A stretch of DNA of 21,901 nucleotides from Nitrospirota bacterium (GTDB taxonomy: Bacteria > JACPQY01): positions 1 to 21,901 of the forward strand of contig JACPAV010000052.1 in the NCBI GenBank assembly GCA_016180645.1, given 5' to 3'. Position 1 is the first letter of the stretch, and every line of letters begins with the position of its first letter. The notes under the pieces were generated by a model that was given only the letters and a program-made list of their open reading frames with translations, was not told where the DNA came from and did no database searches. The position numbers were made by a program, and so were the translations under genes. Positions 57 to 19,275 of the stretch are shown piece after piece.

Positions 57-134
57 GAAGAAAAGGATCCGGCCCGCGGCAGATGTAACCCTAATGATTG
101 AACAACCCCCAACCCGATCTGAACCCGAATCCCC

Positions 135-1655
135 TCACCCCCTCCATCTGAAATACCGCTCCAGCCATCGGCGCAACGAGGGGGTCAGCCGGGCCCGATT
201 GTAGGCGTCTCCCAACCGCTTGATCGCCTCCGATTGAGTTGGATAGGGGTGGATCGTTGCCGCGATCTTGGCGAGTCCCACGCCGGCCGTCATCGCCAGC
301 GAGAATTCTGAAATCATTTCTCCCGCGTGGGCGGCAACCACCGTGGCTCCGAGGATCCGGTCCGTTCCCGCTCGCAGATGGACCCGCGAAAAGCCTTCGG
401 TTTCGCCATCCAGCACCGCCCTGTCAATCTCGCGCAATTCGACGGTAAGAGTCTGAACCGGGATTCCGCGCTCTTTCGCCTCCCGTTCGTACAGACCCAC
501 GTGGGCGATTTCCGGATCGGTGTAGGTACACCATGGGATCGTCAACGCACTCGCCTTCTTTCGTCCGAAAAACAGGGCGTTCTGGACAACGATCCGCGCC
601 ATCGCGTCCGCCGCGTGAGTGAATTTGTACATTGAACAGATGTCCCCCGCCGCGTAGATGCGCGGATTGCTCGTCTGGAGCCTGTTCGACACCTTTACGC
701 CCGCCCTCGAATCGTATTCGACTCCGGCGGCCTCGAGGTTCAATCCCTCGACATTCGGCGCCCGGCCGACACCGACGAGAATCTCATCCACCTCGATGTG
801 CCCCGATTGCCCGGCGCATTCCAGCCGGATCTTCCTCGAATCGCCCTGCCTCTCCACGCTCAGGATCTTGCAGCCCAGAACCAGATTCACGGCATCCTTC
901 GCCAGTGCCGACTGCACTCGTTCCGCCGCGTCGCCGTCCTCCCGCATGAGAATGTGCGGCGCCGCCTCAAGCAGGTGTACTTTCGACCCGAACCGGGCGA
1001 ACGCCTGGGCCATCTCGCAGCCGATGGGCCCGCCCCCGATGACCGCCAGCCGCGGGGGGAGCCTCGTGAGTGAAAAGACCGACTCATTCGTGAGTGAACC
1101 GGCTTCGGCAAGACCAGGGATCGGCGGCACCGCCGCCCGCGCCCCGGTCGCAAGGACGGCCTTCTTGAAATGAAGTCGTCGTCCGTCGGCGCTGATGGTG
1201 GAAGGACCCTCGAACCGGGCGTCGGCGAGAAAGACATCCACGCCGAGCTTTCGGAATCGATCCACGGAATCGTTGGGACTGATCTGCGCCCGCAGGCGTC
1301 GCATTCTTTCCATGACCCTCGGAAAATCAACCCGGCCGCCGGCAGGGATGGTCGTGCCGAATTCGTCCGCGCGCCGCACTTCGGCCGCCGATCGGGACGC
1401 GCGTATCAGCGCCTTCGAGGGCACGCATCCCACGTTCAAGCAATCACCGCCCATCAGGTGCCGCTCCACAAGCGCAACCTTGGCCCCCAGCGAGGCGGCG
1501 GCGGAAGCCGTCACGAGTCCGGCGGTCCCCGCCCCGATCACCACGAGGTTGTACCGCGATGCCGGTTCAGGATTGATCCAGTCCGGTGGATGGGCATTGG
1601 CGAGCAGGGCTCGGTTGTACTCGTCGTCGGGTTTGAGGGACGGCGACGCTTTCAC
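135..1655 (-). CDS. FAD-dependent pyridine nucleotide-disulfide oxidoreductase (dihydrolipoamide dehydrogenase/MerA-like)
   Basis: A 506-residue class I flavoprotein disulfide reductase. The FAD-binding GAGTAG lies at residues 41-46. The redox-active pair is in GGDCLNVGCVPS (C72, C77). A second Rossmann motif, GGGPIGCE, marks the NAD(P)H domain, and the dimerisation domain ends with the HPYPTQSE catalytic His-Glu region. It lacks both the N-terminal HMA metal domain and the C-terminal vicinal Cys pair of true mercuric reductase, since it ends in RYFRWRG. Hg(II) reduction is therefore unlikely and the physiological disulfide substrate is unknown. The start codon overlaps the stop of the TVP38 gene (ATGA), so the two are probably translationally coupled. 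This pairing of TVP38-family and MerA-like genes is common in bacteria. It is the last gene of the PiT/rSAM-ArsM string. Confidence 0.9.
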   Translation of the reverse strand: MKASPSLKPDDEYNRALLANAHPPDWINPEPASRYNLVVIGAGTAGLVTASAAASLGAKVALVERHLMGGDCLNVGCVPSKALIRASRSAAEVRRADEFGTTIPAGGRVDFPRVMERMRRLRAQISPNDSVDRFRKLGVDVFLADARFEGPSTISADGRRLHFKKAVLATGARAAVPPIPGLAEAGSLTNESVFSLTRLPPRLAVIGGGPIGCEMAQAFARFGSKVHLLEAAPHILMREDGDAAERVQSALAKDAVNLVLGCKILSVERQGDSRKIRLECAGQSGHIEVDEILVGVGRAPNVEGLNLEAAGVEYDSRAGVKVSNRLQTSNPRIYAAGDICSMYKFTHAADAMARIVVQNALFFGRKKASALTIPWCTYTDPEIAHVGLYEREAKERGIPVQTLTVELREIDRAVLDGETEGFSRVHLRAGTDRILGATVVAAHAGEMISEFSLAMTAGVGLAKIAATIHPYPTQSEAIKRLGDAYNRARLTPSLRRWLERYFRWRG

Positions 1656-2290: not shown

Positions 2291-4827
2291 CTTTCCGACT
2301 CGGCTGCCGCCGTCTCCGCAATCTCAAACGCCAAGGTCTTCGCGTTTTCCTCCGCCTCCAGCACAACGAACGAACCCGCATACGGCGCATGCCTCAATTT
2401 CGCCGCCGTATCCGTGCAAACCTCCACCGGTTCGTTTCGCGGAAACAGGTGCCCCTCCTCGTCAATCGCCGCCTTGAACGGTCCCGCATAAATAGCCCGC
2501 TGGCCGATGTACCGGCAACCGTCCTTCTTCTCGAATTTGAATCCCTCGACCGTGATGGAAGAAAAATGAAGTCCCTCCACTTCCCTCCATGGTTTCTTGT
2601 CGATCAGGCGCAGGCCGTAGAAGCCGGACTTCTCCAAACCCGCGAGAAACTCCTCCTCGGTCAGCGCCCCGGTGATGCAGGCGCCGCGGAGCTGGATGTC
2701 CCTCTGAAGTTCCATCGAGACTGTGCGATCGGACACAATATCCGAGATGACCGCCCGACCGTGGTCCCTGAGCACTCTCCACATCTCGGCGAAGACCGCT
2801 TTCTTGTCCGGCGAAAGATTGATCACGCAATTGGACATGACCAGATCCGCAGTCCGGTCTTCCACCGGCACGTGCTCCAAGTATCCCTTCCGGAACTCCA
2901 CCGCGTTGTAGCCCAGGCGGTCGGCCACCTCGGTCCCACATCGGCGGGCCACGTCCAGCATTTCGTCCGTCATGTCGACCCCGATGGCGCGGCCGTTCGG
3001 TCCGACTTTCTTTGCCGCGATGAAGCAGTCGATCCCCGCGCCCGAGCCGAAGTCCACGACCACTTCGCCTTCCCGAATCCGGGCCGCGGCCACCGGCCCG
3101 CCGCAGCCGTAGAATCGGTCGATCACATCCTGGGGGATATGGCCCAAGTCCTCCGAGTCATATTTCACGGGGCAACAGAGCGCCTCCTGTGGTTCTTTCG
3201 CCGCGGCAGCGTAGAACGAACGAACGTCCTCCCGCATATGCGCGATGTCGGACGCGAGGTGGCACGACGAATGGCCCAGGGCCACGCCGTTCCGACCCCG
3301 CGTGAGCGCCGATTCCTGTCCGCAAAGGATCGCGTCGCCCATGGACCGCAAAACGACCGGGGCGTTGAAGCCCGATCGGGGATTCGGGGCACCCCCATCC
3401 CCCGCAAGATGCGCCGCCGAACTCGCCTCGCTGAGCAGGATGTCCTCCAGCGCGGTCTTATACAGATCGCAAAAGGGATCGTGGGCGTGGAAACCGTCGC
3501 CCGCGCGCCGCGACCGGCCGTTCTGGGAGTAGAAATAGCCGTGTTCAATCTCCCCCCCCCCGCAGATGAACCGCCACGTGCACGATCGGCACATCTCCTT
3601 ATTGATGACCGATACTTTGCGGGTTTCGGCCAGCACTTCAGAGCTCCTCCAGATCGACTCCAAGGGCGATTCCAAAACATTCCCGCAAGACAGCGCGGGA
3701 TAGCCGGCAGTCGAGGCCGACGGGAACACGCGCCCGTCGGCATAGACGCACAGGCTCTCAAAACCGGCGCTGGAGTGGTCCATCTTCACCCCGCGACGCC
3801 CGTGAATGCGGGCGCGGAAAGACTCGAAGTTGTCGACCGTCACGCCAACCTCCGCGCCCGCCTCTTTCGCTTCCCGGAGAACTTCAAGACATTCGAGCGC
3901 CGACAAGCTGAATTGACCGTTCATGGCCGCCGACCTTCCGCGGTGATGCGGCCAAATCAGGTGGTGGCTTTTCACGCCCAGGGTCGCGAGCAGACGCGTG
4001 ACCTCCGCAACCTTGTGCCGGTTGGCGGCATTCACAACCGTTGTGACAATCGGTGCAAAGCCAGCCGCCTGCGCCGATCGGATTCCGCGAAGGATGGGAT
4101 CGAAGCTGCCCTTCCCTCGGATCGGGTCGTTTGTTTCCGCATCCGGCCCGTCCAGGCTGATTTGGAGGACCAACGGGCGCCCGGAGTAATCCCGTAATCG
4201 ATCCAGCGTCGGCCCTTTGAAAAGCATCCCATTGGTCAGGATGACCAGTTTCCGGTCGGGACGGCTCAGGACGAAATCCATCAGCTCGAAAATATCTTTG
4301 CGCAGGAACGGCTCGCCTCCCGTGAAGTAGACCTGGCCGGTTCCCAGATCGAACGACTGCCGTAGGATGGCTTTCCACTGATCCGTGGAGAGTCCCTGAT
4401 CCTCCTTCGGACCGGAAGAAACGAGGCAGTGGGAACACGAAAGATTGCAGGAATTGTTGAGATGGAGCCAGATCTCGCGGAGACCCGTGAGTTGGAGAAT
4501 CTCGCTTCGCCCTAGATAGCCCGGCCGCGCCGCAAACGGCTCGTCGCTCACGAAGCCCGCGCGGGCGGCATCCTTGATGAACGTTGCGCAATGGACCCAA
4601 GCGGCGGCCGTGGGTGTTCCCGTCTCAGCGGAGTACCTTCGGACAACGGCGTCGAATGACGTTGTTCCATCCAGCCCTTCGAGAATCTTCGCTCCTCGCG
4701 AATCCGTGCTGATCCAGTTCGGCCCCTCGGGATCCAGGAAGACGACCATTCCATCCCGCTCCTTCCGAACGAAATCCGGCACGTGCCAAACCGTTTGATC
4801 GGTGAACAGCATTTGCGAACGATCCAT
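2269..4827 (-). CDS. PqqD-like/radical SAM/SPASM - ArsM-type methyltransferase fusion protein
   Basis: About 852 residues with at least three modules. Residues 10-100 resemble a PqqD/RRE-like domain. A radical SAM domain follows, with CNLSCSHC (C127, C131, C134) and FTGGEP at 168-173. Next is a SPASM-like Cys set (C360, C381, C413, C416, C422, C453) for auxiliary Fe-S clusters. After a linker the C-terminal third (about 545-852) is an ArsM-like SAM methyltransferase: CCPVKYD (C551/C552), SAM loop [10 protein letters not shown] (591-600), SNCVINL (C667), GACITGAL (C717) and a terminal CGPGCC. The three ArsM As(III)-binding cysteine positions appear conserved. The start at 4827 was chosen because GGAGG lies about 7 bases upstream and just follows the Pit stop; a longer frame reaches 4944 but would overlap Pit. 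The likely role is arsenic methylation plus a radical modification. The radical SAM substrate is unknown. Confidence 0.88.
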
Positions 4828-4841
4828 ATCTCTGCCTCCCA

Positions 4842-5966
4842 TCATAAATATTCGACGCCCAGCCAGTATGCCCCCGCCGAAAAGGCCGCGGAAAGCGGCA
4901 GCGTGATGACCCATGCAAGCACGATTTTCCGCACCACGCCCCACCGCGCCCCGCCTCCGACCGCGCCGATGCCCAGGAGCGACCCCACGGACACGTGCGT
5001 CGTGGAAACCGGCAACCCGAAGAGGGAGGCCGAGACGACAAGAGCGGCGGTGACCAGGTTTCCCGAGAGAGCCTGACCGTGATTCATCTCCGTGATCCGC
5101 CGGCTCATGGTATCCGCCACGCGTTTCGCGGCGAGCAGGCCGCCCGCCGCAATGGCCATCGCCACGAACAGATTCGATCCCGGCGAGGCAACGGCACCCG
5201 TCGCAAGCAGCAAGGCCACCATCTTCGGAGTATCGTTCAACCCTCGCGCAAAGCTCACGACGCCCGCGGATGCAAAGTGCGCGCCGCCGAGTACAGCCTG
5301 AATCGACACCCCCAGCATTCGCCCCCGGTAGCGTTCGGCGCAGGCGCCGACTGAATCGGATCGTACGGTAATCATCCTTCGCGCGATCGCCGCCCCCTCA
5401 CCCGCCGGACTCAGGCCGACGGCCACCACCTGCTCTTCCTCCCCTACGCAAATGCAAAACTCCTTTTCAATCCCCAGCCGTTTTCGAGCGGAGGTCGCCA
5501 CACCATAGGTCAGCACGGTCAGCACCCCGGCAATCAGCGGGGACACGAGCAGCGGCACGAAAAAGTCGAATCCGAGCGCGGACCAATGAAGGCCCGAACC
5601 CGCGGCTGCGAGACCGGCGCCCGCGAGGGCGCCCACCAAGGCGTGCGTGGTTGAAATCGGGAACCCCCTCCACGTGGCGAGCAGGACCGTCAGCGCAGCG
5701 CCGAGAGCCACGGCCAAGACAAACGAAGGTTCACCCGCGATCGCATCGGGCACAAGCCCCTTGCCGCTGAATCTCCTACCCAACTCGCCCGCCAGGAAAA
5801 TCGCCCCGAGCGATCCCGCCAGCGTGGCCGCCGTCGCCCACGTCAACGCGCGCCGGTAATTCGCCGTCCCGCTCCCGACCAGCGTGGCCACGCCCTTGAA
5901 GTTGTCATTCGCTCCATTCGCGAACGCAACCAACATCGCCACGACGATCAGTCCAATCTCCAACAT
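4842..5966 (-). CDS. PiT-family inorganic phosphate transporter
   Basis: About 374 residues with roughly ten hydrophobic segments in two homologous halves. The N-terminal half carries the PiT signature around FANGANDN and ISTTHALVGALAGAG. The C-terminal half carries LNDTPKMVALLLATG and VSTTHVSVGSLLGIGA. It is expected to import phosphate, probably as a metal-phosphate complex with cation coupling. Pit-type carriers also admit arsenate, which suits the ArsM-like gene directly downstream (overlap or no gap). I chose the ATG at 5966 because the hydrophobic first helix begins there (MLEIGLIVVAML). An in-frame ATG at 5996 would add ten residues. The 126 bases upstream separate it from the heme barrel gene and show no obvious terminator. 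Confidence 0.9.
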   Translation of the reverse strand: MLEIGLIVVAMLVAFANGANDNFKGVATLVGSGTANYRRALTWATAATLAGSLGAIFLAGELGRRFSGKGLVPDAIAGEPSFVLAVALGAALTVLLATWRGFPISTTHALVGALAGAGLAAAGSGLHWSALGFDFFVPLLVSPLIAGVLTVLTYGVATSARKRLGIEKEFCICVGEEEQVVAVGLSPAGEGAAIARRMITVRSDSVGACAERYRGRMLGVSIQAVLGGAHFASAGVVSFARGLNDTPKMVALLLATGAVASPGSNLFVAMAIAAGGLLAAKRVADTMSRRITEMNHGQALSGNLVTAALVVSASLFGLPVSTTHVSVGSLLGIGAVGGGARWGVVRKIVLAWVITLPLSAAFSAGAYWLGVEYL

Positions 5967-6122
5967 GATATCCGTCCGTGGTCCCGCCACCCCCATTCGT
6001 TACGCCCATGGACGGGCCGCACCCGAAGCTGCTCAGAGGCGCCCGGAAGGCATCTCAATGCTCTGCGCGGGGTGCGCCGTGGTCCTCCTGTCAATCAGAG
6101 ACCGCAGAACCTCCGTCGATCC

Positions 6123-7565
6123 TCAAAAAGCAAATTCCCAGCCGATCCTGGCGGCATGCGCCTCCACCGCATCAGATCCCGACGACCTCATGTAGTGATA
6201 TTCGGCAACCCATCGCTGAAACTCCCACGGCGAGGCAAACCCCACGGTCACGGCGCGCGTCCCGCCCCCTCGGGCGTCCGAAGGATCGAAGAAGTCATAG
6301 CGAACCAAGGGCGTGAAATTGTCCCACAGGGCGATATCGACTTCACCGAAGAATCCCTTGCTGTTGATCGGTACCCTTTCGCCACCCGATTCGACCATGT
6401 CCCGCCCCCCCCCTATTCCGGCGAGCAGATGCAGTGCGTCGATGGGAGGATAGTTCGCAACGATGGCGCCGCGCCAGAAACCGTTTCGAAAGGTTTCGGA
6501 GTCTGGGTCAGATGCGTCCTTGGGTTCGTCCACGCTCCCCAAGTATCCAACGATTTCCACGGCCCCGCCGGTGTCTCCGACAAACTGAACGAGGTTGAAC
6601 GCCGCGTCCACGCGGTTGTTATCTCTGGAGAAACCTGCCGTTCCGCTCCCATCTGAGGCAAGCCCGTTGAAGACCGTGATGGAGGCCAAGGTATCCTCAC
6701 GGCCGCCGCCGAGCATCACCCCGATCTGGCTCGGATACGCGAAGGAAAAAGTCTTTCCCGCGGCGGGTGTGGCGGTTACAAGGGGTTCCGTAAAAGTGAC
6801 GGAGTTGTCCAGGCCCGCCCATCCCTCCACGGGATGCATGATCCCGGCTTTGACCTGGAAGAACCGATCTTCCTGCCCGAACGTGGCGCGCACATTGCCC
6901 ATGTGGACGTCCGCCTTTCCGCTGTCCGCGGCGAGCCGCACGTCGAAAAAGGTTGAGTAGTACCGCCCGAACGGCGCGCTGGAGAAAATGTCGACTTCAG
7001 GCGCGGAAAAACCGATCCTGGTCTTGGAAGAGTCCGTTCCCAACACCCCGGCCGTTTCCGCATCTCGTCTGGGAGACTTCTCTCGGCGGATTGGAGCGAC
7101 CCCGAGCGGGATGGAGCCGATGTTGACCTCCGCCGCGGGGACGGCGTCTTCTTTGTTGCAGAAGATCGTGATCCCCGTGCTCCCTCCGTGGGTGTGACCG
7201 GGGACATCCACACTCTCCACGAACACCTCCTTGTCCACGCACCGGGAGGAGCGAGTCACATTGAATGACAGGCCGCCCTTCATGGCGAAAGCATCGAGGA
7301 GCCGTTTGAGACCGGGGCCTTCTTCGCCGTTGATTTCTTGAGGAGTGCGATAGCCCATCGCGCGGAACATGAACCCGAATTTGTTCAGCCGGGGCCAGGA
7401 ATCGTGGCAACGATGACACGGCATCTTTTCGCGGCGGGCGAAAGCGGGGATGGCATGGGCCTCCCGCGGGACGGCGTGCCAGGCGGTCATCGCCAACGCC
7501 AGGCCCGCCATGATCCGGGCGGTGCAGCTACCCAGCCTCAGTCGTAAGGGGTGGGCGCCAGTCAT
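6123..7565 (-). CDS. Outer-membrane beta-barrel protein with one N-terminal c-type heme site
   Basis: About 480 residues from the ATG at 7565. A signal peptide (hydrophobic IMAGLALAMTAWHAV, cleavage after AHA) is followed by IPAFARREKMPCHRCH, with one CxxCH heme site at about C50-H54. The remainder has alternating hydrophobic/polar strands and Gly/Asp-rich turns typical of an outer-membrane barrel and ends in WEFAF, a terminal Phe as expected for Bam recognition. The N-terminal motif PxFAxREKMxCxxCH is very close to that of the barrel protein at 8147-9262, so the two share a heme-plug design. Longer (7616) and shorter (7511) starts are possible. The chosen one gives a normal signal peptide and overlaps the preceding gene by 38 bases. 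It may be an electron or solute conduit across the outer membrane; substrate unknown. Confidence 0.75.
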   Translation of the reverse strand: MTGAHPLRLRLGSCTARIMAGLALAMTAWHAVPREAHAIPAFARREKMPCHRCHDSWPRLNKFGFMFRAMGYRTPQEINGEEGPGLKRLLDAFAMKGGLSFNVTRSSRCVDKEVFVESVDVPGHTHGGSTGITIFCNKEDAVPAAEVNIGSIPLGVAPIRREKSPRRDAETAGVLGTDSSKTRIGFSAPEVDIFSSAPFGRYYSTFFDVRLAADSGKADVHMGNVRATFGQEDRFFQVKAGIMHPVEGWAGLDNSVTFTEPLVTATPAAGKTFSFAYPSQIGVMLGGGREDTLASITVFNGLASDGSGTAGFSRDNNRVDAAFNLVQFVGDTGGAVEIVGYLGSVDEPKDASDPDSETFRNGFWRGAIVANYPPIDALHLLAGIGGGRDMVESGGERVPINSKGFFGEVDIALWDNFTPLVRYDFFDPSDARGGGTRAVTVGFASPWEFQRWVAEYHYMRSSGSDAVEAHAARIGWEFAF

Positions 7566-7959
7566 CTTGCAGCGCAGCCGCTTTCCGAATCCAACGCCGG
7601 AATTCCGGATACGCATCCAGTATGAGTTTCCAACCCGCTCGACTGATAAAGGTGACCCCCACCTTGCCTGCCGCCTGCGTGGAAACGGTGAGTTCGCTGT
7701 TGCTCATCAGCGCGTGAACTCCCAGGAGGCACGGCTCGCTGCAATCTCCTACCCCGGCGCCTCCTCTGAGGAACGAAAGATGTCCGGTTTCGTGCAGGTA
7801 GACTCCGAGTGGCCGATGACCTTCATAGGCGATCACCTGACCCGACCGGAAACATTGTCCGGTACCTCGGCCTTTGATTACGAAGGCAAGGGCGGGACTC
7901 GGAAGGCGGCTAATGGGGATGGTGGGCGCCGGGATCGAAAGGCCCGATGGCCCTCGAAT
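7528..7959 (-). CDS. Small cyclic-nucleotide-binding-like (Crp/Fnr sensor domain) protein, start unclear
   Basis: The C-terminal about 105 residues of this frame look like a Crp-type beta-roll: FRSGQVIAYEGHRPLGVYL, then HLSFLRGG, a short loop region and SNSELTVSTQA, ending in helix-like DAYPEFRRWIRKAA. No helix-turn-helix follows, so it is a stand-alone sensor domain rather than a transcription factor. The usual phosphate-binding GE...R cassette is not evident, so cNMP binding is doubtful. The open frame has no ATG, and no GTG or TTG, before the domain. An ATT at 7959 with a purine-rich AAGGCGCCGGAG just upstream is the best guess. The frame stays open through the palindromic element at 8021-8146 into the antisense-frame shadow of the next gene, so the true 5' end may have been lost. 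Confidence 0.55.
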   Translation of the reverse strand: MRGPSGLSIPAPTIPISRLPSPALAFVIKGRGTGQCFRSGQVIAYEGHRPLGVYLHETGHLSFLRGGAGVGDCSEPCLLGVHALMSNSELTVSTQAAGKVGVTFISRAGWKLILDAYPEFRRWIRKAAALQDDWRPPLTTEAG

Positions 7960-8146: not shown

Positions 8147-9262
8147 TCAGAAGAACACATGGACCATGCCGATGACCTCGCTGATGCCGCCAATCGGATT
8201 GTCGGATCGGGCCACGGAACGGCGGTACAGCATTTTGAACTCGAGATACGGAATCGGGAACATTTCGAATCCGCCGCCGACGCGGTGAACGAGATCGCCC
8301 TCCAGGTCGAAATCCGGGTTGGTGTATTCATAGAGTCCTTGGATTTCAAGACCCCGCCTGACGATGACGTTGGCCTCCTCATAGAGGACCCATCCCCGAA
8401 CGGTTTTCTTCGCGCCCAGATCGCGGTTCGAGAACCAGTCGGCCTCACCGAGGTACCCCAAGCGCCCGTAGGACGCGCCCCAGATGACGCCGTCCCGCAC
8501 GGCGATTCTGCGGGGCGACTCTTCGGCCGTTTCACGGCTGCCGGTGAGATTGTACAGACTGGACAGGCCGAGCATGATCGGGACTTGGCCGAGACGTGAG
8601 CCATATTCGACGCGGGCGGTTGCGGCCTTTTCGGTATTGTTGTCTTGGTTGACTTTGCCTCCCACGCCGTTGAACACGTCCAACTGGACGAGGAACGGGC
8701 CGGGCCGGATTCCGAATTCAATGCCCGTCTCTTTCTCGCGCGGCGCGAAGCCGATGTCCTCCCGCACGAACGTGCGGTGGTTGTCGAGCCGCCAACCGTA
8801 GGTGGGAATGAACCGGCCCACTTTGACGAAGCTCCCGGCCCAGGGGAGGGAGATGATTCCCATGGCCTCATAGGTTCCGTTAAGACCTTGGTCGTAGTAG
8901 AGGTTCAGCCGCTCGTGCAGTTTCGCCGAGGCGTATAAATCCGCCTGCATCTGGAAGAAGGAGCTCGTGCTGGTGACGCCCTCTTCCTGGGATGGGATGT
9001 AGATGTATGCCGAGCGAGAGTCGGCTCCAAGGCGAAGCGGGCCGACCTCCGGCGGGGCCCAGACTTTTCCGATCCGAGTCAAGGGCAGGTCGAGCCGTTC
9101 GTACACCTGGCTTCCGTACGCGTTCCGCATCCCACCGCCCGAGGGATTGACGTGGCAGGCGCCACACGTCATGCCCTCCCGTACGGCAAACCGCGGCAGA
9201 GCCGACGCCGACGCGGAGCCCAGCAGCCACAGGCTCAGGATGAGCGAAATCCGTCGAATCAT
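8147..9262 (-). CDS. Outer-membrane beta-barrel protein with one N-terminal c-type heme site
   Basis: 371 residues. Signal peptide MIRRISLILSLWLLGSASASA is followed by LPRFAVREGMTCGACH, with the heme-binding C33/C36/H37, then NPSGGGMRNAYGSQVYERLD. This motif set recurs in barrel proteins of many Gram-negative anaerobes. The rest has amphipathic strands and Tyr/Trp-rich turns and ends in MVHVFF with a terminal Phe, as expected for an outer-membrane barrel of about 330 residues. Its start codon overlaps the upstream lipoprotein stop (ATGA), so it is co-translated with it. The stop codon sits at the outer edge of the palindromic element. With the upstream diheme cytochrome it could carry electrons to or from the cell surface. 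That role is inferred; no barrel substrate can be read from the sequence. Confidence 0.85.
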   Translation of the reverse strand: MIRRISLILSLWLLGSASASALPRFAVREGMTCGACHVNPSGGGMRNAYGSQVYERLDLPLTRIGKVWAPPEVGPLRLGADSRSAYIYIPSQEEGVTSTSSFFQMQADLYASAKLHERLNLYYDQGLNGTYEAMGIISLPWAGSFVKVGRFIPTYGWRLDNHRTFVREDIGFAPREKETGIEFGIRPGPFLVQLDVFNGVGGKVNQDNNTEKAATARVEYGSRLGQVPIMLGLSSLYNLTGSRETAEESPRRIAVRDGVIWGASYGRLGYLGEADWFSNRDLGAKKTVRGWVLYEEANVIVRRGLEIQGLYEYTNPDFDLEGDLVHRVGGGFEMFPIPYLEFKMLYRRSVARSDNPIGGISEVIGMVHVFF

Positions 9263-9684
9263 CTGGGTCGTTCCAGACGGATTTCGGCGCGCGGCGCCGC
9301 GGAGAGCGGGCGGATTCGGATCCTATCCGCCGCGCCGGCATATCCAAACGGATCGACTCCCGCTTTCAGCATCCCGGCGTACGGCGTGTCCGAAGGGTCC
9401 AGATCGACCGATGCGCCGACCACGTAGTCCCCCGGCGGCAGGCCTTCAAACCGGACCGTGGTTGGGAACGAGTAATCTTCGATGAGCTTGTATGCGAGCG
9501 GGGCACCTGTTGGAGGGTGAGACTCGTAGACGGCTACGGCCAGGGGCTGCCCCGCCCGCGCAGTTTTTCCGTGGTAGTCGATGATGACGTCGAGGGAGCC
9601 TTCCCCGCCCCCCACCTGCCCGCCGCAACTTTCGAGCAGGCAGACAAGCGCCATCCCTATTCCAAGCCGAAGAATCTTTCCCAA
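9259..9684 (-). CDS. Small lipoprotein with a beta-sandwich (DUF2141/prealbumin-like) domain
   Basis: About 141 residues if translation begins at the TTG at 9684. The reason for that start is a strong GGAG 8 bases upstream and a proper lipoprotein signal, GKILRLGIGMALVCLLESC (lipobox LLESC, acylated Cys20). The longer ATG-started frame runs antisense-free through the cytochrome gene and is not credible. The mature part (GSLDVIIDYHGK...VRFEGLPPGDYVVGASVDLD) has the FEGLPPGxYxV pattern of carboxypeptidase-regulatory/DUF2141-type beta-sandwiches. Function unknown. It overlaps the 3' end of the diheme cytochrome gene by 28 bases and the start of the barrel gene by 4 bases, so it belongs to the same transcript. 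Confidence 0.75.
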   Translation of the reverse strand: MGKILRLGIGMALVCLLESCGGQVGGGEGSLDVIIDYHGKTARAGQPLAVAVYESHPPTGAPLAYKLIEDYSFPTTVRFEGLPPGDYVVGASVDLDPSDTPYAGMLKAGVDPFGYAGAADRIRIRPLSAAPRAEIRLERPR

Positions 9685-10427
9685 AGTCCTTTCTCCTTTC
9701 CAAGCGAGCGAACGTAATGAACGACGTCCCATAGTTCCTCCGGACTGACCAAATCCTGGTGGGAGGGCATGGGAGTGCCGCAGATGCCTTGGACGATCAC
9801 GCGGTAGAGATCCGTGTTCGTCCCGCCGCTCTTGAAAAGCGCCTTTGTAAAGTCTCGCGGGCGGACGGATCCACCCCAATCATCTTTCAGAGTACCGGCC
9901 GAGGGGCCGTCCCCGCGCCCCGAGGGGCCGTGACATTTTGCGCACTCCAGGTCTTCGAAGACTTTTCGGCCTCGTTCGATCCCCGGGGCGTCCACCGCCG
10001 TTTCGGGCGGGACGCCGGAGGCCCCGGCGGGCCTGGGGGATGACGTAATGAGTTGCAGGACGAAAGCCGCCACGGAGGAAATCTCTTCATCGCTCAGCAT
10101 GCCCGCCCATCCGGGCATTTTCGTGCCGGGGAGGCCATCCCTGACGATGCGCTCGATGTCCTCCCGCTGCGGAAGCGAGCCGCACGGCGTGGTCTGGAAT
10201 TTGAGAACCCCTTTCCGGAAGTCGCGCGGGCGCGGATTCATGTACGAAGAAACATCGCCCTGTCCGTCCCCTTCGGCGCCGTGGCAGGCGGCGCAGGCAT
10301 TGCGGTAGGCATCCCGGCCTTGGATCAGGCGCAGAACCGCGTTGTCCGCTCCGGCTTCACCCCACGCGGGGCCGCCCAGGCAACAGATCCCCGTCAAAAG
10401 TACCACGGCTGCGTAAAACGCTTTCAT
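9657..10427 (-). CDS. Periplasmic diheme cytochrome c
   Basis: 256 residues with signal peptide MKAFYAAVVLLTGICCLGG...AWG. Two class I cytochrome domains are visible. The first has CAACH (C45, C48, H49) and a likely axial Met in GTKMPGW (M104). The second has CAKCH (C162, C165, H166) and GTPMPSH (M220). Both halves contain PRDFxK after the heme site, so the protein is an internal duplication. GAGGCGAGG just before the ATG is a good ribosome site. This two-domain type often serves as electron donor to periplasmic reductases or dehydrogenases. Here it lies downstream of the propeller and cupredoxin genes, but a 150-bp palindromic repeat separates them. Confidence 0.9.
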   Translation of the reverse strand: MKAFYAAVVLLTGICCLGGPAWGEAGADNAVLRLIQGRDAYRNACAACHGAEGDGQGDVSSYMNPRPRDFRKGVLKFQTTPCGSLPQREDIERIVRDGLPGTKMPGWAGMLSDEEISSVAAFVLQLITSSPRPAGASGVPPETAVDAPGIERGRKVFEDLECAKCHGPSGRGDGPSAGTLKDDWGGSVRPRDFTKALFKSGGTNTDLYRVIVQGICGTPMPSHQDLVSPEELWDVVHYVRSLGKEKGLWERFFGLE

Positions 10428-10604: not shown

Positions 10605-11174
10605 TTATTCCTCTACGATGAGGGTTCCCTTGAGCTTTGGGTGGATCGTGCACCACTGGTTCTGGCAGGAGAACCCGTAGCGCCCCGGGGTGTCGGCGCT
10701 GAATTCCACGGTTCCGGACGGCTTTGCGGCCGACAGCTCCGTCTCGGGCAGACTCAGCCCTGAGAACGCGATGATATGCACGTTGTCTCCTGTCGTATCG
10801 CTATTGACGAACTTGATACGCACGCGCGAGCCTCTTTTCACGGTCAAGGTGAAGCCTTTGGGCACGCCGCCAAAACCGTTTGACGTGATCTCTACCGTGA
10901 TATCCGAAGAGGTCGGGCCCGCCGCGGCGGCGGACGGCGCCGGTTGACCCGCGGCAGGTTGTTCGCCTGTCGGGGCGGTGGGAGCGCTGGGCTGGGCCGC
11001 CTGAACGTCCGGCCCGCTTCCGGCGATTTGATGGCCTTCGTGTTCGCTCGAATCCACGGCTTGGAAGTCGGCCACGTCGATGCGGGCCAGCGGGGCATCC
11101 TCCAATCCGCACGCCGGGGCCGCGGTAAGAGCCGCGACCGCCAAGGCATACCCGTATCGGCAAGGTGTACACAT
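10605..11174 (-). CDS. Cupredoxin-domain lipoprotein with unusual Cys/His copper site
   Basis: 189 residues from the ATG at 11174, preceded by GGGGAGGAG. The lipoprotein signal ends in LTAAPAC (Cys22). A long Ala/Pro/Gly-rich linker (about 60-90) tethers the C-terminal cupredoxin fold. Putative copper ligands are H133 (NVHII) and, in the last loop, C170-x4-C175-x2-H178-x2-L181 (CQNQWCTIHPKL). The surrounding GTVEFSADTPGRYGFSC and KGTLIVEE strongly resemble the CuA domain of nitrous oxide reductase. The first Cys-to-His distance (8) equals that of CuA, but the second Cys is one position late and Leu replaces the Met. It could be a type 1 site (C175-x2-H178) or a modified CuA. The gene starts 17 bases after the propeller stop, so the two proteins probably work together. 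Confidence 0.85.
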   Translation of the reverse strand: MCTPCRYGYALAVAALTAAPACGLEDAPLARIDVADFQAVDSSEHEGHQIAGSGPDVQAAQPSAPTAPTGEQPAAGQPAPSAAAAGPTSSDITVEITSNGFGGVPKGFTLTVKRGSRVRIKFVNSDTTGDNVHIIAFSGLSLPETELSAAKPSGTVEFSADTPGRYGFSCQNQWCTIHPKLKGTLIVEE

Positions 11175-11191: not shown

Positions 11192-12703
11192 CTACTTCGA
11201 CCGGAAGACGTTGACGCTGACTTTGTCCGTCTTCCACACGATCTCTTTGACACCGAGCAGGTCTTCCTTGGCCGTCCTCGCGCTGCCGTGGAGGCCGGAC
11301 TGATCGGAGAGAACCTCGCCGGCCAACGAGCCGTCGGAGTTGACGGCGTATTTCACAAAAGAGCCGTTGTGGGAGCTACCCGTGTGGTTGATGGTCTTTT
11401 TGATCTCGTTTTTCGTCAGGTCGAAGACCACATCGCGGAAGTTGGAGTTGTAGCTGATCCAGAGTTCATTCCTGTCGGGATTCGGATGGAGGATTCCATG
11501 GTCGCCCCGCAGGCAGTGCGTCTCGAAGGTGTCCGACGGCGCCATGGCCACCGGATCGACGAGGCCCAGGGCTTTCCCGCGATTGTGCGACGCCTCGCCC
11601 TTCTCCACCACATAGAGTTGGGTGTCGTCCCAGTTGAGATGGATGCCGTACCCGCCGTGGACCGCGGAACGCGAGGTGCCGATCATCTTCATCGTGACGT
11701 TGTCGATCTTGAAGATCTCGTCGCTCCCGCCGTCACCGACGTAGGCGTACTTCCCGTCCGCGGTGAAGGCCGTCCAGATCGGATCAAAACCGACGGTGAA
11801 ATACTTCACGGGCTTCCAGGTTTTCATATCCACGATCGCGACGCTGCCTTCCAGCTTGTGCCGGATGTCCGGATCCGATATGGGGCCGGGAGGGAGGCCG
11901 ACGTAGAGGTGACGACCGTCCGGATGGGGGAAAGCCAGGTAGGGATTGCCTTGAACATCCTCGCTCCTGAAGCCGCCGACCACGCGATTATTGTCGTTCG
12001 GATCGAGAACGTAGATGCCGGAACCCGGCTGGATGCTGCCGGGCACCTGCCAGTTGAAGTTTTCAACAAGCACGAGATCCTTGCGCGTCTCCCCGTCATA
12101 GTAGTTCACGGTTCTGACGTGATGGGGATAGCTGCTGGTTTGAAGAATCTGATGCATTTTGAGCGTTTGCGCATTGACGATGAGAAGTCGCCCCGCCTCC
12201 TTGATGGGTTTCGCCATGTCGCCCGTCGGAATGTAGAAGAATTTTCCGTCGGGCGAAGCGGCTGAACCGTGATCCTCCCACAACTTCTTCGGATCGACTC
12301 CATCGAGTTGGAACTGTTTTTCCACGATAACCTCATAGGTGTCTGCATCGACTACGACGAGTCCCGGAGTTTGCGTGGGCGAGGGGAACCCGCCATAGCC
12401 GGCCCCGTTCGTGGTCATGTATATGAGAGGGTGCTTCGCCGCATCCCACGCCGCATCCCCGCTGGAGTCGTATTGCGCCATCAGCTTGATCTCCAGTTTC
12501 TGGGAGAACGTGGTGTCCCAGCCGGTCGGTGATGTGGCCGGCGTGGACGTTCCGCCGGGAACGACCACGGTGTCCGTGGACGTGGGGACCGGAGTTCCTT
12601 TCTGGTCCGCGCTGCCGGAAGCGGTTTTGTCCTCCGTGCCGCAGGCGAAAGTGACGGCCATGCTGACGACAAGCAGGGCAAACAGGCGCGATAATTTGTT
12701 CAT
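11192..12703 (-). CDS. Periplasmic histidine-rich beta-propeller lipoprotein (candidate copper oxidoreductase)
   Basis: 503 residues. Lipoprotein signal ends VTFAC (Cys21), followed by a Thr/Pro/Ser linker to about residue 62 and then a YVTN/lactonase-like propeller with repeats such as GLVVVDADTYEV, GRLLIVNAQTLK, GSVAIVDMKTWKPV and GKYAYVGDGG. Histidines recur just before blade strands: H145 (DHGSAASPDG), H194-H195 (YPHHVRT), H260 (FPHPDGRH), H349/H355 (VHGGYGIHLN), H402/H406 (DHGILHPNPD) and H445 (SSHNGSF). A His-His pair plus one His per blade is the arrangement of the CuZ cluster of nitrous oxide reductase and resembles the tri-copper thiocyanate dehydrogenase propeller. The cupredoxin gene follows immediately. 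A sigma-54 promoter precedes it. The exact reaction cannot be read from sequence; a non-metal YVTN propeller is the alternative. Confidence 0.8.
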   Translation of the reverse strand: MNKLSRLFALLVVSMAVTFACGTEDKTASGSADQKGTPVPTSTDTVVVPGGTSTPATSPTGWDTTFSQKLEIKLMAQYDSSGDAAWDAAKHPLIYMTTNGAGYGGFPSPTQTPGLVVVDADTYEVIVEKQFQLDGVDPKKLWEDHGSAASPDGKFFYIPTGDMAKPIKEAGRLLIVNAQTLKMHQILQTSSYPHHVRTVNYYDGETRKDLVLVENFNWQVPGSIQPGSGIYVLDPNDNNRVVGGFRSEDVQGNPYLAFPHPDGRHLYVGLPPGPISDPDIRHKLEGSVAIVDMKTWKPVKYFTVGFDPIWTAFTADGKYAYVGDGGSDEIFKIDNVTMKMIGTSRSAVHGGYGIHLNWDDTQLYVVEKGEASHNRGKALGLVDPVAMAPSDTFETHCLRGDHGILHPNPDRNELWISYNSNFRDVVFDLTKNEIKKTINHTGSSHNGSFVKYAVNSDGSLAGEVLSDQSGLHGSARTAKEDLLGVKEIVWKTDKVSVNVFRSK

Positions 12704-12762
12704 GGGTTTCCTCCTTCGAGGGTAGGGAATACAGAGTTACGATTTTTCATCCTCAGGCGTAA

Positions 12763-12780
12763 GCGCAACCGCCGTACCAA
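12763..12780 (-). promoter_or_regulatory. Sigma-54 (-24/-12) promoter of the propeller gene
   Basis: On the minus strand the sequence reads TTGGTACGGCGGTTGCGC. GG (12778-12777) and GC (12766-12765) are separated by exactly 10 bases, and TGGtACG-N4-TTGCg matches the TGGCACG-N4-TTGCW consensus closely. A start of transcription near 12753 would give a leader of about 50 bases before the ATG at 12703. A sigma-54 activator is encoded 1.8 kb upstream. Confidence 0.8.
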
Positions 12781-12854
12781 GACCGGTGGAATGGGAAATT
12801 CGAGCTATCTTGAGGAGTTGAATTGTCGAGCGGGGCGCTCGACATGAAAGAACC

Positions 12855-12903
12855 GTTACGAGTTCGTAACGTGTTTCAGGGGGCGAGGTTACGACTTCGT
12901 AAC
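12855..12903. promoter_or_regulatory. Tandem palindromic activator-binding sites
   Basis: Two perfect palindromes of the form GTTACGA-NN-TCGTAAC lie at 12855-12870 and 12888-12903, with centres 33 bp apart (about three helical turns) and 85-120 bp upstream of the -24 element. A half site GTTACGA is at 12736-12742. Position and symmetry fit an enhancer for the neighbouring NtrC-type regulator. The second site encodes the last residues and stop codon of the histidine kinase. Confidence 0.8.
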
Positions 12904-14547
12904 GTCGCCGGCGGGATCAGGCTTGCCGGTGGGGAGCCACAGCGTGATGCTCGCGCCCCCGCCGAGTCGATCCCCGATTTCGATGTAACCTCCGTGGGCC
13001 TTGACGATCCCAAGCGTGACGGACAGTCCAAGTCCGGTCCCTTCACCCTCCGGCTTCGTCGTGAAAAACGGCTCGAAGACTCTCTCGCGAATCTCTTTCG
13101 GAACGCCCGGACCGTTGTCCGCTATCTGAATGCCGATCCTGTTCTCCTGATGCGCAAAGTTGACTTCGACCATGCCTCCGCTCGGAACCGCGTGAATGGC
13201 ATTGAGGAGAACGTTCATGCAGGCCTGGCGAAGCTGTCCGCGGTCCGCCAATACAAGAAATCCATCCGGCCCGCCCGGGGTGGGAGCCCACAGTTTGCGC
13301 GACCGGATGGCCTTCGCTTTCATGGTCGGCGAAAGCAGGTCGAGGCAGTCGTCAACCAAGGCCGGAAGACCTACCTCGGTCGGATGAAGATTGTCCGGGC
13401 GGCTGAATCGAAGGAGTCCTCTTACCGTGTCGGCCATCCTTTCCAGGCACTCGCGCATGATTCTCATGTACCGCTCGCGCCGCTCCGGCTTGAGATCATC
13501 CTGCTCCAGTGCCTTCAGGGCATTCATCAAGCCGGAGAGGGGATTGTTGATTTCGTGGGCGACGCCCGAGGCCAGCAGACCGACGGCGGAGAGTCGTTCC
13601 GTCATGGCCATTCCCCGCTGTTCGGCGTCTTTTCTCGCGCTGATGTCGCGGCAAAGCGCCAAGGTGCTGAGGAACTTCCCATGCGGGTCGCGGATGGCGA
13701 TGGCGCTGACCTCCATCGGAATCCGTCGGCCGTCTTTCGTGATCACGGCCGTTTCATGCGAAGAGAAACCTTTCTCGCGAACCCGGGTGTGCGCTTCCAC
13801 GTTCGACTTCATGGCGTCGGGCGCCACGATATCCGCCATACTCATCCCGAGAATTTCCTCCTTGGTGTACCCGGTGAGGTCAAGCATTTTCTGGTTGACC
13901 CGCGTGGGGCGCCGTTCGGCGTCGGTGCACCCCACGGCGTCGGGAAGCAACTCGATCAGTTGATCGATCATCCCTTCCGACGTGTACCATCGCTTGGCGG
14001 TCTCGGTGTGTTGCTGTTCAACTTCCCGGAGGAGAGCTCGGTCGTGGTCCGAGAGGTTGCCCATGAGGAAGCTGAGCGTGCCGATGATGCCGACCGGAAG
14101 AATGGCGTCGAACCAAGTGGGGCCGGCGCCGACCCGTGAGGCCTCCAGCAGAAAGAAGATCAAGGCGGCCGCCGCGCCGAGGGCGAACACACTGCCCTCC
14201 CGTCTTCCAAAGTAGTAGCTGTGGAAAGCGCAAAAGAGGTAGAGCGCCGGCACGAAATCGCTGCGGAATCCGTCGGTCAGATGGATCAGGACGGCGAGGA
14301 ACGCCAGATCGATCCATCCGGCGACGAAGTAGAAGTGTCTCTTTTCCCCGAGGAGGGGCCAGGCCAGGAGGTAAAGCGCCACGCTGGCGGCGGCGAAAAG
14401 GCCGAAGAGGAACCCGATGATCCGGATCGCCTGAAAATGTTCGCGGGCGGACAGGACGAACACCAATCCCCCGCCGAAAGCCAGAATGCGGAGGACGAGA
14501 AAAGCTGCGTCCTGGCGGTCGCTATCCGTCCTGCCGGGGAGCTTCAT
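12889..14547 (-). CDS. Membrane PAS-domain sensor histidine kinase
   Basis: 552 residues. About six hydrophobic segments occupy residues 12-165. A short coiled linker leads to a PAS domain (about 192-305; PDAVGCTDAERRP, TGYTKEEILG) with a PAC-like end. The HisKA domain has GVAHEINNPLSG with phospho-acceptor H331. The ATPase domain shows the N box (NVLLNAIHA), G1 (DNGPGVP), F (FEPFFTTK) and G2 (GTGLGLSV). This NtrB/ZraS-like type normally pairs with sigma-54 activators. Its ATG lies inside the 3' end of the regulator gene (26-base overlap), so both are one operon, regulator first. No periplasmic sensor domain is seen; the input is likely the membrane region or the PAS pocket. Confidence 0.93.
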   Translation of the reverse strand: MKLPGRTDSDRQDAAFLVLRILAFGGGLVFVLSAREHFQAIRIIGFLFGLFAAASVALYLLAWPLLGEKRHFYFVAGWIDLAFLAVLIHLTDGFRSDFVPALYLFCAFHSYYFGRREGSVFALGAAAALIFFLLEASRVGAGPTWFDAILPVGIIGTLSFLMGNLSDHDRALLREVEQQHTETAKRWYTSEGMIDQLIELLPDAVGCTDAERRPTRVNQKMLDLTGYTKEEILGMSMADIVAPDAMKSNVEAHTRVREKGFSSHETAVITKDGRRIPMEVSAIAIRDPHGKFLSTLALCRDISARKDAEQRGMAMTERLSAVGLLASGVAHEINNPLSGLMNALKALEQDDLKPERRERYMRIMRECLERMADTVRGLLRFSRPDNLHPTEVGLPALVDDCLDLLSPTMKAKAIRSRKLWAPTPGGPDGFLVLADRGQLRQACMNVLLNAIHAVPSGGMVEVNFAHQENRIGIQIADNGPGVPKEIRERVFEPFFTTKPEGEGTGLGLSVTLGIVKAHGGYIEIGDRLGGGASITLWLPTGKPDPAGDVTKS

Positions 14548-16030
14548 CCTCTTCCTCTTTTTCGGCGGGTGGATTCAGCCCGTGTTCGCGCAATTTCTCC
14601 CAGAGCGTCTTGCGCGAGATGCCCAGCAGGTCGGCGGTCTCCTGCCTACGCCATCCGGTGGATTGCAGAGCTTTGGAAAGGTACTCGCGCTCGAACGATT
14701 TCAAGACCTCCTCCAAACCGCGCGATCCCGGCGCCATGTGATCCGGGAGCAAGGCGTTCGAGCTGGTGCCGCGAACCGCTTCGGGAAGGTGCGCGGCGTC
14801 GATCTCACCGCCACGGGCCAGGATGGAGGCGTGTTCGATGGCGTGTTCCAGTTCTCTGACATTGCCGGGCCAGGCGTATGCGGTGAGGGCCGCCCAGGCC
14901 GTGGGCGAAATGTCCTGCCGGGATGAACCCTGTTTGGAGGCCAGCCGCCCGAGGAAGGCGGCGACGAGAATCGGGATGTCGTCCTTCCGATCCCGAAGAG
15001 GAGGCACCTCCAGGCAGACGACATTGAGCCGGAAATAGAGATCCTCCCGGAAGCGGCCCTCCTTGCTTCGCCGGCGAAGATCGACATTGGTTGTGGAAAT
15101 GATCCGGACATTCACCTGAACGCTTGCATTGGTCCCGAGAGGCTCGAAGGTCCCCTCTTGGATCACGCGGAGGAGCTTGGCTTGCGCCGGAAGAGGAATC
15201 TCCGACACGTCATCCAGGAGCAGGGTGCCTCCGTCCGCGGCCTTGAACCTCCCGTCGCGTCTCTTCACGGCGCCGGTGAAGGCCCCCCGTTCGTATCCAA
15301 AGAGTTCCGCCTCGAGGAGGGTTTCCGGAAAAGCAGCGCAGTTCACGGCCACGAAGGGTTTGGCCTCACGCGAGCTGAGCCGGTGAACTTCCCTCGCCAG
15401 CAACTCCTTTCCCGTCCCGGTTTCGCCATTGATCAGGACGTTGGATTCGGAGGCCGCCACCACACCGACTTGGTCCAGGAGAAAACGCATCCGGGGCGAG
15501 CCGCCCAGGATTGTCCGCGAAGCGTCCAGTTCGCTCAGACGCCGCCGGGCCTCCTCGAGTTCGGAGCGCAGCCGGCTCTCCTCCTGGATTCGGCGGACTC
15601 GGATGAGCAGCTCATCGCGGTCGAAGGGCTTGGTGAGGTAATCGTAGGCGCCCTGCTTGACGGCCTTCACGGCATCGGTCACCGACGCGAAAGCCGTCAT
15701 AAGAATCACCCGCGTTTCCTCACGGCTTTGCCTGATCAGGTGGAAGAGGCTCAAGCCGTCTACCTTGGGCAGACGAATATCCAGAATCACGAGATTGTAG
15801 GAGCGGGCTCTCATTTTTCGCTGGGCTTCGGCGCCGTCCGCCGCCGTGTCCACCTCGAACCCTGAATCGTGGAGGAAATCCGAAAGCGTCAGGCGAAGGG
15901 AGGCTTCATCCTCGGCAATCAAGATGGTGAAACCGGCTGAATTCGCCAAGGCCGGTTTCCGAGCCCCACCGTCTTTTTCCTTGCCTACCATGTCGCTGGA
16001 AGAATCATCCCGCAATTTCCATTCCAGCAT
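14522..16030 (-). CDS. NtrC-family sigma-54-dependent response regulator
   Basis: About 502 residues from the ATG at 16030; 15991 is an alternative start and neither has a strong ribosome site. The receiver domain has the acidic pair in IAEDE and phospho-acceptor about D84 (VILDIRLPK), then K in YLTKPFD. The AAA+ domain shows GETGTGKE (Walker A), the sigma-54-contacting loop GAFTGA, and GTLLLDDVSEI (Walker B). The C-terminal Fis-type helix-turn-helix is ETADLLGISRKTLWEKL. The overlapping kinase gene is its partner. Likely targets are the GTTACGA palindromes 1.6 kb downstream, ahead of the propeller gene. It is divergent from the ECF sigma gene. Confidence 0.94.
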   Translation of the reverse strand: MLEWKLRDDSSSDMVGKEKDGGARKPALANSAGFTILIAEDEASLRLTLSDFLHDSGFEVDTAADGAEAQRKMRARSYNLVILDIRLPKVDGLSLFHLIRQSREETRVILMTAFASVTDAVKAVKQGAYDYLTKPFDRDELLIRVRRIQEESRLRSELEEARRRLSELDASRTILGGSPRMRFLLDQVGVVAASESNVLINGETGTGKELLAREVHRLSSREAKPFVAVNCAAFPETLLEAELFGYERGAFTGAVKRRDGRFKAADGGTLLLDDVSEIPLPAQAKLLRVIQEGTFEPLGTNASVQVNVRIISTTNVDLRRRSKEGRFREDLYFRLNVVCLEVPPLRDRKDDIPILVAAFLGRLASKQGSSRQDISPTAWAALTAYAWPGNVRELEHAIEHASILARGGEIDAAHLPEAVRGTSSNALLPDHMAPGSRGLEEVLKSFEREYLSKALQSTGWRRQETADLLGISRKTLWEKLREHGLNPPAEKEEEDEAPRQDG

Positions 16031-16144
16031 GGTGCTCACGTTGATGACAGGTTCGCTCCAAAAGCGAATCCTTGACATGACGCAGATCAATGAACCTGAG
16101 TGAGTTTGAATGGACGGGCCTGCCGTGATAGGGGTCAGCAGCAG

Positions 16145-16699
16145 ATGGATCGGAAACAAACGGGCGAAGCCTTCCTGAAAGACATGCCGGCGCTCTACCG
16201 TTTCGCCCTGCGGCTCACGCGTTCGCCCCAAGACGCGGACGAAGCCGTCTCACGAACCGCCCTGCGCTCCCTGGAAAAGGCCGAGGCGTTCAGAGGCGAA
16301 TCCTCCATTCGCACATGGATTTTCGGGATCCTGATCAACGTCGTGCGCGAGATGCGGAAGGAAGGGTGGCGGGAGGAGTCGCTGGACGAAGGTCCCTACC
16401 CTCCCAACTCCGAATTCGACGACGGTGGGCGGAGGCTCCAGCCGGCAACCGAACAAGGCGACGATCCGGAGCACGTCCTTCTGCGAACCGAAGGCGTCGA
16501 ACGCATCCGCAACGAACTGGACACTCTACCCCCCCTCCAACGGAGCGCCTTCCACCTCCGATTCATTGAGGGATGGGAAATGGAGGAGATCTGTAACGCC
16601 CTCCAGATCAAGGCCACGCATTTGAGGGTCCTGCTCCACCGGGCACGACTGCGACTGAGAGAACGCATGATTGATTACGTCAAAGGAGAATCCAAGTGA
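16145..16699 (+). CDS. ECF-type RNA polymerase sigma factor
   Basis: 184 residues from the ATG at 16145; a GTG at 16100 would add 15. The sigma-70 region 2 core is LYRFALRLTRSPQDADEAVS with SIRTWIFGILINVVRE (region 2.3-2.4). A linker rich in Glu/Asp/Pro precedes region 4 (LPPLQRSAFHLRFIEGWEMEEI...KATHLRVLLHRARLRLRE). The stop codon overlaps the start of the zinc-finger gene that follows, the usual sigma/anti-sigma arrangement. Region 4 lacks any C-terminal extension. It probably controls this plus-strand operon, including the selenoprotein gene. Confidence 0.93.
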   Translation: MDRKQTGEAFLKDMPALYRFALRLTRSPQDADEAVSRTALRSLEKAEAFRGESSIRTWIFGILINVVREMRKEGWREESLDEGPYPPNSEFDDGGRRLQPATEQGDDPEHVLLRTEGVERIRNELDTLPPLQRSAFHLRFIEGWEMEEICNALQIKATHLRVLLHRARLRLRERMIDYVKGESK

Positions 16700-18885: not shown

Positions 18886-19275
18886 ATGGACGACGCAGCG
18901 CAGACGGTGAAAGGGAACGGGGAATCGGCTCACGGGCTGATCCAGAAGGTCAAGAGGGCGACGCGGAGGCGGTTTGGGGCGGAGGAGAAGATTCGGATTC
19001 TCCTGGAGGGGATGAAGCGGGAGGTTTCGACCTCGGAACTTTGCCGGAAGGAGGGGATTCATCCGCACGCCTATTATTCGTGGCTGAAGGACTTCATGGA
19101 GGCTGGGAAGTCGAGGCTGAGGGGGGATTTGAAGCGGAGCGCGACCGAGGGGGAGGTGGAGAGCCTGCGGCGGGAGAACGAGAGGCTGAAGGTGATTTTG
19201 GCGGACCCGGTTCTGGAGAACACCCTTTTGAAAAAAAGTCTGATCGGGTCGGAGATCGATGGACTTACGCGATGA
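18886..19275 (+). CDS. IS3-family transposase OrfA
   Basis: 129 residues from ATG 18886, preceded by AAGGAGGAAG; an upstream TTG at 18850 is less likely. The N-terminal helix-turn-helix (FGAEEKIRILLEGM...STSELCRKEGIHPHAYYSWL) is the HTH_8/transposase-8 DNA-binding type. A leucine-zipper-like coiled coil (EVESLRRENERLKVILADPVL) follows. The TGA overlaps the ATG of OrfB (ATGA), so OrfB appears to be made by coupled reinitiation. Confidence 0.93.
   Translation: MDDAAQTVKGNGESAHGLIQKVKRATRRRFGAEEKIRILLEGMKREVSTSELCRKEGIHPHAYYSWLKDFMEAGKSRLRGDLKRSATEGEVESLRRENERLKVILADPVLENTLLKKSLIGSEIDGLTR

Follow-up and report, generated by a model that had tools for sequence, protein, structure and literature searches.

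A candidate copper β-propeller oxidoreductase with a separately encoded electron partner in a Nitrospirota bacterium

A seven-bladed propeller encoded in a 21,901-nucleotide stretch of Nitrospirota DNA (hereafter, the window) carries seven histidines that are invariant in all four proteins of its family, and the evidence tips modestly towards a new family of copper β-propeller oxidoreductases whose electron partner is encoded separately. To our knowledge, the copper-cluster β-propeller enzymes with solved structures are of only two kinds, nitrous oxide reductase (NosZ) and thiocyanate dehydrogenase (TcDH). Our reading draws on the retention of the seven histidines at approximately 40% sequence identity, four of them in the copper-ligand slots of NosZ and TcDH; on a structural match to both enzymes from the N to the C terminus; on cytochromes and a copper carrier, or the remnant of one, at all four loci; and on a cytochrome, a lipoprotein and a haem-porin that the window has in common with locus L035 at 35–42% identity.

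Seven invariant histidines

The propeller gene lies on the minus strand, at the coordinates already given in the preliminary description, and encodes a product of 503 amino acids.

11192..12703, minus strand: seven-bladed YVTN-like β-propeller, probable lipoprotein (Cys21), assigned from sequence, alignment, AF2 model and structural match

Comparison with Pfam gave nothing above threshold, and NCBIfam gave weak, repeat-level matches only, among them PQQ_ABC_repeats (30 bits) and hydrazine synthase beta (21.6 bits). In a profile comparison with the PDB, the solved folds closest by sequence are YVTN proteins.

The window genome comprises 4.7 Mb and is 97% complete. A profile search of a 195-genome phylum returned two further relatives (G490 and G399), and a single relative was found among 290 diverse genomes, at a Candidatus Tectomicrobia locus (L005); a scan of genome contigs recovered that same contig as the sole relative. 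Propeller relatives were not found in profile searches of several small phyla, in viral contigs, in plasmids or in a second species of the phylum of the window genome (84% complete). The alignment set thus consists of four proteins, from the window, Candidatus Tectomicrobia (one) and the 195-genome phylum (two), all of which align over their full length, with the relatives 38–40% identical to the window propeller. Exactly seven of the 17 histidines in the window protein are invariant in all four:

12269..12271, minus strand: H145, slot histidine of blade II (slots are defined below)
12119..12124, minus strand: H194-H195, His–His pair of blade III, paired by hhalign with the His–His of lactonase-type NosZ (L-NosZ)
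11498..11500, minus strand: H402, slot histidine of blade VII
11486..11488, minus strand: H406, on the same inner strand, four residues past H402
11369..11371, minus strand: H445, ahead of the C-terminal strand that closes blade I
11288..11290, minus strand: H472, in a C-terminal hairpin that is itself kept in all four homologs

Histidine is enriched among the invariant columns, with a Fisher P value of 0.015 for the window protein and of 3e-5 to 8e-4 for the relatives, and H91 is kept in three of the four. All of the histidines singled out in the preliminary description are present in the sequence; conservation bears out H145, H194, H195, H402, H406 and H445, but H260 and H355 occur in the window protein only, and H472 had been missed.

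Blade register

We defined a pre-strand slot as the position seven residues before the aspartate of the A/B turn, and located the slots by visual inspection of the repeats. From blade I to blade VII, the slot residues are H445, H145, H194 (followed by H195), Y255, I309, Y352 and H402 (with H406 in the same strand); the lead-in of blade I is longer than in the other blades of the window propeller. The slot tyrosines, Y255 and Y352, are likewise invariant in all four proteins. Four histidines in seven slots have a hypergeometric chance of approximately 5e-5 (17 histidines in 448 residues), a figure that applies to slots read by eye. The earlier expectation of one histidine per blade at equivalent pre-strand positions does not hold: H145, H194, H402 and H445 occupy slots, in blades II, III, VII and I, but these are only four of the seven blades, the slots of blades V and VI have none, and H260 and H355 fall off the slot.

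The same register places in the slot the TcDH histidines of ‘PAHQAGFSPDG’ and ‘DMHTLAITYDG’ and the L-NosZ histidine of ‘NPHGTD’. In NosZ, every blade but IV contributes one histidine, and blade II contributes two (PMC11573801); the TcDH active site comprises histidines 135, 136, 206, 381, 437, 482 and 528, together with Glu288, Asp314 and Lys103 (PMC6504805). The window family has the slot histidines of blades I, II, III and VII in common with both enzymes. It has none in blades V and VI, and its H195, H406 and H472 are additional. The CuZ pattern of seven histidines from blades I, II, III, V, VI and VII is thus interrupted at the histidine-free slots of blades V and VI, and, by register, the equivalents of TcDH His381 and His437 are I309 and Y352.

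Predicted structure

A first AF2 model (pTM 0.64) was too poor for telling folds apart; a trimmed model reached a pTM of 0.75 with a mean pLDDT of 68. The trimmed model aligns from N to C terminus with NosZ (Z 27.6, 310–314 residues, r.m.s.d. 3.1–3.2 Å) and with TcDH (Z 27.1, 325 residues, r.m.s.d. 3.0 Å). In the alignment with SdNosZ at Z 27.6, model residues 1..375 correspond to 63..497 with the same strand order, in a fold that is common to many families. The YVTN protein 1l0q (Z 28.6) and lactonases (Z 27–28) score nearly the same, so the fold cannot separate copper from metal-free propellers, and BtuG lipoproteins follow at Z of approximately 25.8. The haem d1 propellers NirF, NirN and cd1 also rank high in Foldseek, but we rejected this family, as the window propeller has no match to PF02239, a model with one repeat-level match elsewhere in the window genome.

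Relation to known propellers

YVTN surface-layer proteins, YncE and 6-phosphogluconolactonase-like propellers have the fold and the repeat sequence of the window family. We know of no seven-histidine constellation or copper-protein operon among them.

TcDH resembles the window family in being a seven-bladed propeller whose seven active-site histidines include a His–His pair, and we liken the two further in the copper of the hub and in a cytochrome c partner, copper in the window family being predicted only. Sigma-54 regulators have also been reported for TcDH operons (PMC6504805). The two differ in the place of the pair, which by our own blade mapping lies in blade III of the window propeller and in blade II of TcDH, and in export, which is by the Tat route for TcDH and probably by the Sec/lipoprotein route for the window propeller. 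For a distant kinship to TcDH, raised in the preliminary description, the sequence gave no clear backing: PDB profile comparison gave no significant match (E 0.016–0.5), and hhalign with a TcDH-like protein aligned about one blade. Separately, a plasmid of Methylocella tundrae (L030, 2699-7427) encodes a TcDH-like protein with a His–His pair, annotated as hypothetical, beside an ABC permease and ATPase.

Clades I and II of NosZ are likewise seven-bladed propellers with seven histidines and a cupredoxin/CuA partner, and in them too a C-terminal strand bearing a histidine closes blade I (PMC11573801); however, CuA is fused in NosZ and is not fused in the window family. Our search for maturation genes was for NosD alone (TIGR04247) and gave no match at E ≤ 1e-5 in the 97% complete window genome, which counts against a NosZ-type cluster.

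L-NosZ (clade III, NF052460), like the window family, has a YVTN/lactonase-like propeller with its His–His pair in blade III. The pairs are aligned by hhalign (Prob 93–97, partial match), but the alignment shifts by one blade further on, and we therefore do not take it to prove kinship. Membership in L-NosZ itself, a family also named in the preliminary description, we reject: the NCBIfam model scores 25.8 bits over approximately 110 residues, against a cut-off of 700 bits, and this short match does not fall on the same blade in every member. The window family has no counterpart of L-NosZ H222 or H265, and the L-NosZ chain includes its own CuA (C-x3-C-x3-H-x2-M), whereas the window chain ends after the blades and the cupredoxin is separate. 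For a NosZ-like lactonase, a gene cluster that includes nosDFLYX has been reported (PMC11033732).

Copper proteins and cytochromes at the propeller loci

On the minus strand of the window, the gene order is response regulator, kinase, propeller, cupredoxin, diheme cytochrome c, lipoprotein, haem-porin and second haem-porin. The genes that follow the propeller are:

10605..11174, minus strand: cupredoxin lipoprotein, with a likely start ATG at 11174 in an ORF that opens at 11237 (PF13473, E 4.5e-9)
9657..10427, minus strand: diheme c-type cytochrome (PF13442 and PF00034), 35% identical to the L035 diheme cytochrome
9259..9732, minus strand: small lipoprotein of no known family, likely start 9732, 42% identical to its L035 equivalent
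8147..9262, minus strand: porin-like protein with an N-terminal CxxCH haem motif, 41% identical to its L035 equivalent over the full length
6123..7616, minus strand: second haem-porin with a Cyc2-like N terminus (AIPAFARREKMPCHRCHDSWPRL), from comparison with the Cyc2 motif (PMC8406198)

Aligned with the copper proteins of the relatives, the ligand loop of the window cupredoxin, C-x4-C-x2-H-x2-L, is unlike the CuA loop (C-x3-C-x3-H-x2-M) and is missing the axial methionine of a normal type 1 copper site. The best PDB matches of this cupredoxin, to CuA domains and nitrosocyanin, are weak throughout. Whether the second haem-porin is part of the propeller module is uncertain. Its AXPXFAR motif and CXXCH...PXL spacing fit the Cyc2 signature, but it has RE in place of [QK][TY].

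Each relative is similarly placed. The L005 locus encodes a kinase, two response regulators, the propeller, a monoheme cytochrome c and a cupredoxin, followed on the opposite strand by a sulfur transporter; the loop of this cupredoxin, C-x2-H-x2-M, has a spacing that we take to be amicyanin-like. On the minus strand of L035 are a CuA-haem protein (loop C-x3-C-x3-H-x2-M), SCO1/SenC, a lipoprotein, a haem-porin, a diheme cytochrome c, a monoheme cytochrome c and the propeller. At L034, the contig edge cuts into an L035-type CuA-haem protein, leaving its haem end, after which come a monoheme cytochrome c and the propeller. The monoheme cytochromes of L005, L034 and L035 align with each other. c-type cytochromes thus occur at all four loci, as does a copper carrier or its remnant: the cupredoxin in the window and L005, the CuA-haem protein and SCO1/SenC in L035 and the haem end in L034.

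Several other genes were seen along the way. Directly downstream of the propeller, L034 (2959-3630) and L035 (2473-3033) encode a protein with 44% mutual identity, and none adjoins the window propeller. In the window, 2269-4944 (minus strand) encodes an 891-amino acid fusion of a PqqD-like region, a radical SAM/SPASM region and an ArsM-type arsenite methyltransferase domain, adjoined by a PHO4/Pit transporter (4842-5996); L034 echoes this arrangement at 11626-13718 with ArsM-like and ArsS-like genes and then a Pit-like ORF, as judged from translations. We note this arsenic link in passing, as the L034 genes lie 9–11 kb from the propeller (G490) with a transposase-like ORF between. An IS-type integrase/transposase-like ORF, its translation judged by eye, is found at 19041-20267 on the plus strand of the window, and defence families gave no matches.

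Regulation

Two regulatory genes and three sequence elements precede the propeller. The promoter and palindrome patterns were composed after viewing the sequence, so the chance figures given with them are optimistic:

14522..16231, minus strand: NtrC-type sigma-54-activating response regulator, given by its ORF limits, the true start being probably further in
12889..14547, minus strand: PAS sensor histidine kinase, from family search
12888..12903, no strand assigned: second perfect palindrome, 33 bp from the first
12855..12870, no strand assigned: perfect palindrome GTTACGA-nn-TCGTAAC, putative enhancer site, 0 expected by chance
12765..12780, minus strand: sigma-54-like -24/-12 promoter TTGGTACGGCGGTTGC, approximately 60 bp upstream of the propeller start codon, the single match in the window with 0 expected in shuffles

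The two palindromes (GTTACGAnnTCGTAAC) lie between the kinase and the propeller. Together with the sigma-54-like promoter, they fit the adjoining NtrC-type regulator, which may bind them.

Discussion

The analysis establishes the fold class, the seven invariant histidines with their blade register, the partner genes and the promoter-like sites; copper binding, convergence of the histidines, electron flow and regulation we infer. An exported, mostly lipid-anchored seven-bladed propeller would hold a multinuclear copper site in its hub, with the seven histidines, supplied by blades VII, I, II and III and by the C-terminal hairpin, as the ligands. As a copper oxidoreductase acting on a small molecule, the propeller would exchange electrons with separately encoded partners, namely a small copper protein (either cupredoxin or CuA) and the neighbouring c-type cytochromes, and the operon's own two-component system would switch the operon on through the sigma-54 promoter. 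More tentatively, and with the odds in our view somewhat against it, the copper centre of the family may belong to a class of its own: a multinuclear site whose seven histidine ligands come from an unbroken series of blades (VII, I, II and III) and from the C-terminal hairpin. The propeller would then be served in trans by an electron-transfer copper protein and act as a respiratory small-molecule enzyme in at least three phylum-level lineages.

Several observations weigh against a copper oxidoreductase. Metal-free YVTN and lactonase folds match the model equally well, blades V and VI are without histidine, a canonical CuA loop and an axial methionine are both missing from the window cupredoxin, only four homologs are known and the model has a mean pLDDT of 68. 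The propeller might instead bind metal without catalysis, acting in the periplasm as a chaperone for copper or zinc, or as a store of either, that feeds the cupredoxin or CuA protein; AztD (6n01), a zinc chaperone, is among the Foldseek matches of the model, and SCO and a copper protein adjoin the propeller in L035. We consider this unlikely, since the seven histidines sit at inner-strand positions as in the catalytic NosZ and TcDH, the several cytochromes and the two-component, sigma-54-type control suit a respiratory enzyme better, and the SCO of L035 already has a chaperone role. Unlikely, too, is a binding lipoprotein of the YVTN or BtuG kind that contains no metal, acts together with the haem-porin and keeps its histidines for ligand binding or folding. 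YVTN proteins as the closest solved folds by sequence, the BtuG match and the presence of a haem-porin in the module would suit such a protein, but seven invariant histidines including a His–His pair would be unexpected in it, and the copper-protein, cytochrome and SCO neighbours would be left unexplained.

Were the family genuine N2O reductases, they would form a fourth, split type, with a CuZ-like cluster in the propeller and CuA in a separate protein. This reading would account for the seven histidines, the pair aligned with that of L-NosZ, the structural match to NosZ and the CuA protein in the L035 gene run. It is nonetheless distinctly improbable, given that the window genome yielded no NosD match, that blades V and VI offer no histidine, that the L-NosZ score is 25.8 bits against the cut-off of 700, with a match that shifts blades between members, and that the partner cupredoxin of the window does not have a CuA loop. 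Most likely, the window family works like NosZ and TcDH yet is a member of neither, because the L-NosZ score, the fused CuA, NosD and the histidines of blades V and VI all fail to place it there. The initial proposal of a NosZ- or TcDH-like copper enzyme accordingly keeps its core, in the seven invariant histidines, four of them in ligand slots, the structural match and the copper and cytochrome neighbours; membership in L-NosZ is not supported.

For a copper oxidoreductase of this kind, we lean slightly towards substrate oxidation as the direction, since the search of the window genome for NosD came up empty, and the sulfur transporter beside L005 gives a weak hint of the substrate. NosZ and TcDH matter for the chemistry of a greenhouse gas and of a pollutant. 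If a third kind exists, with another set of ligands, it would reveal how an ordinary YVTN propeller can be turned into a copper enzyme and would bring a further respiratory reaction to little-known lineages.
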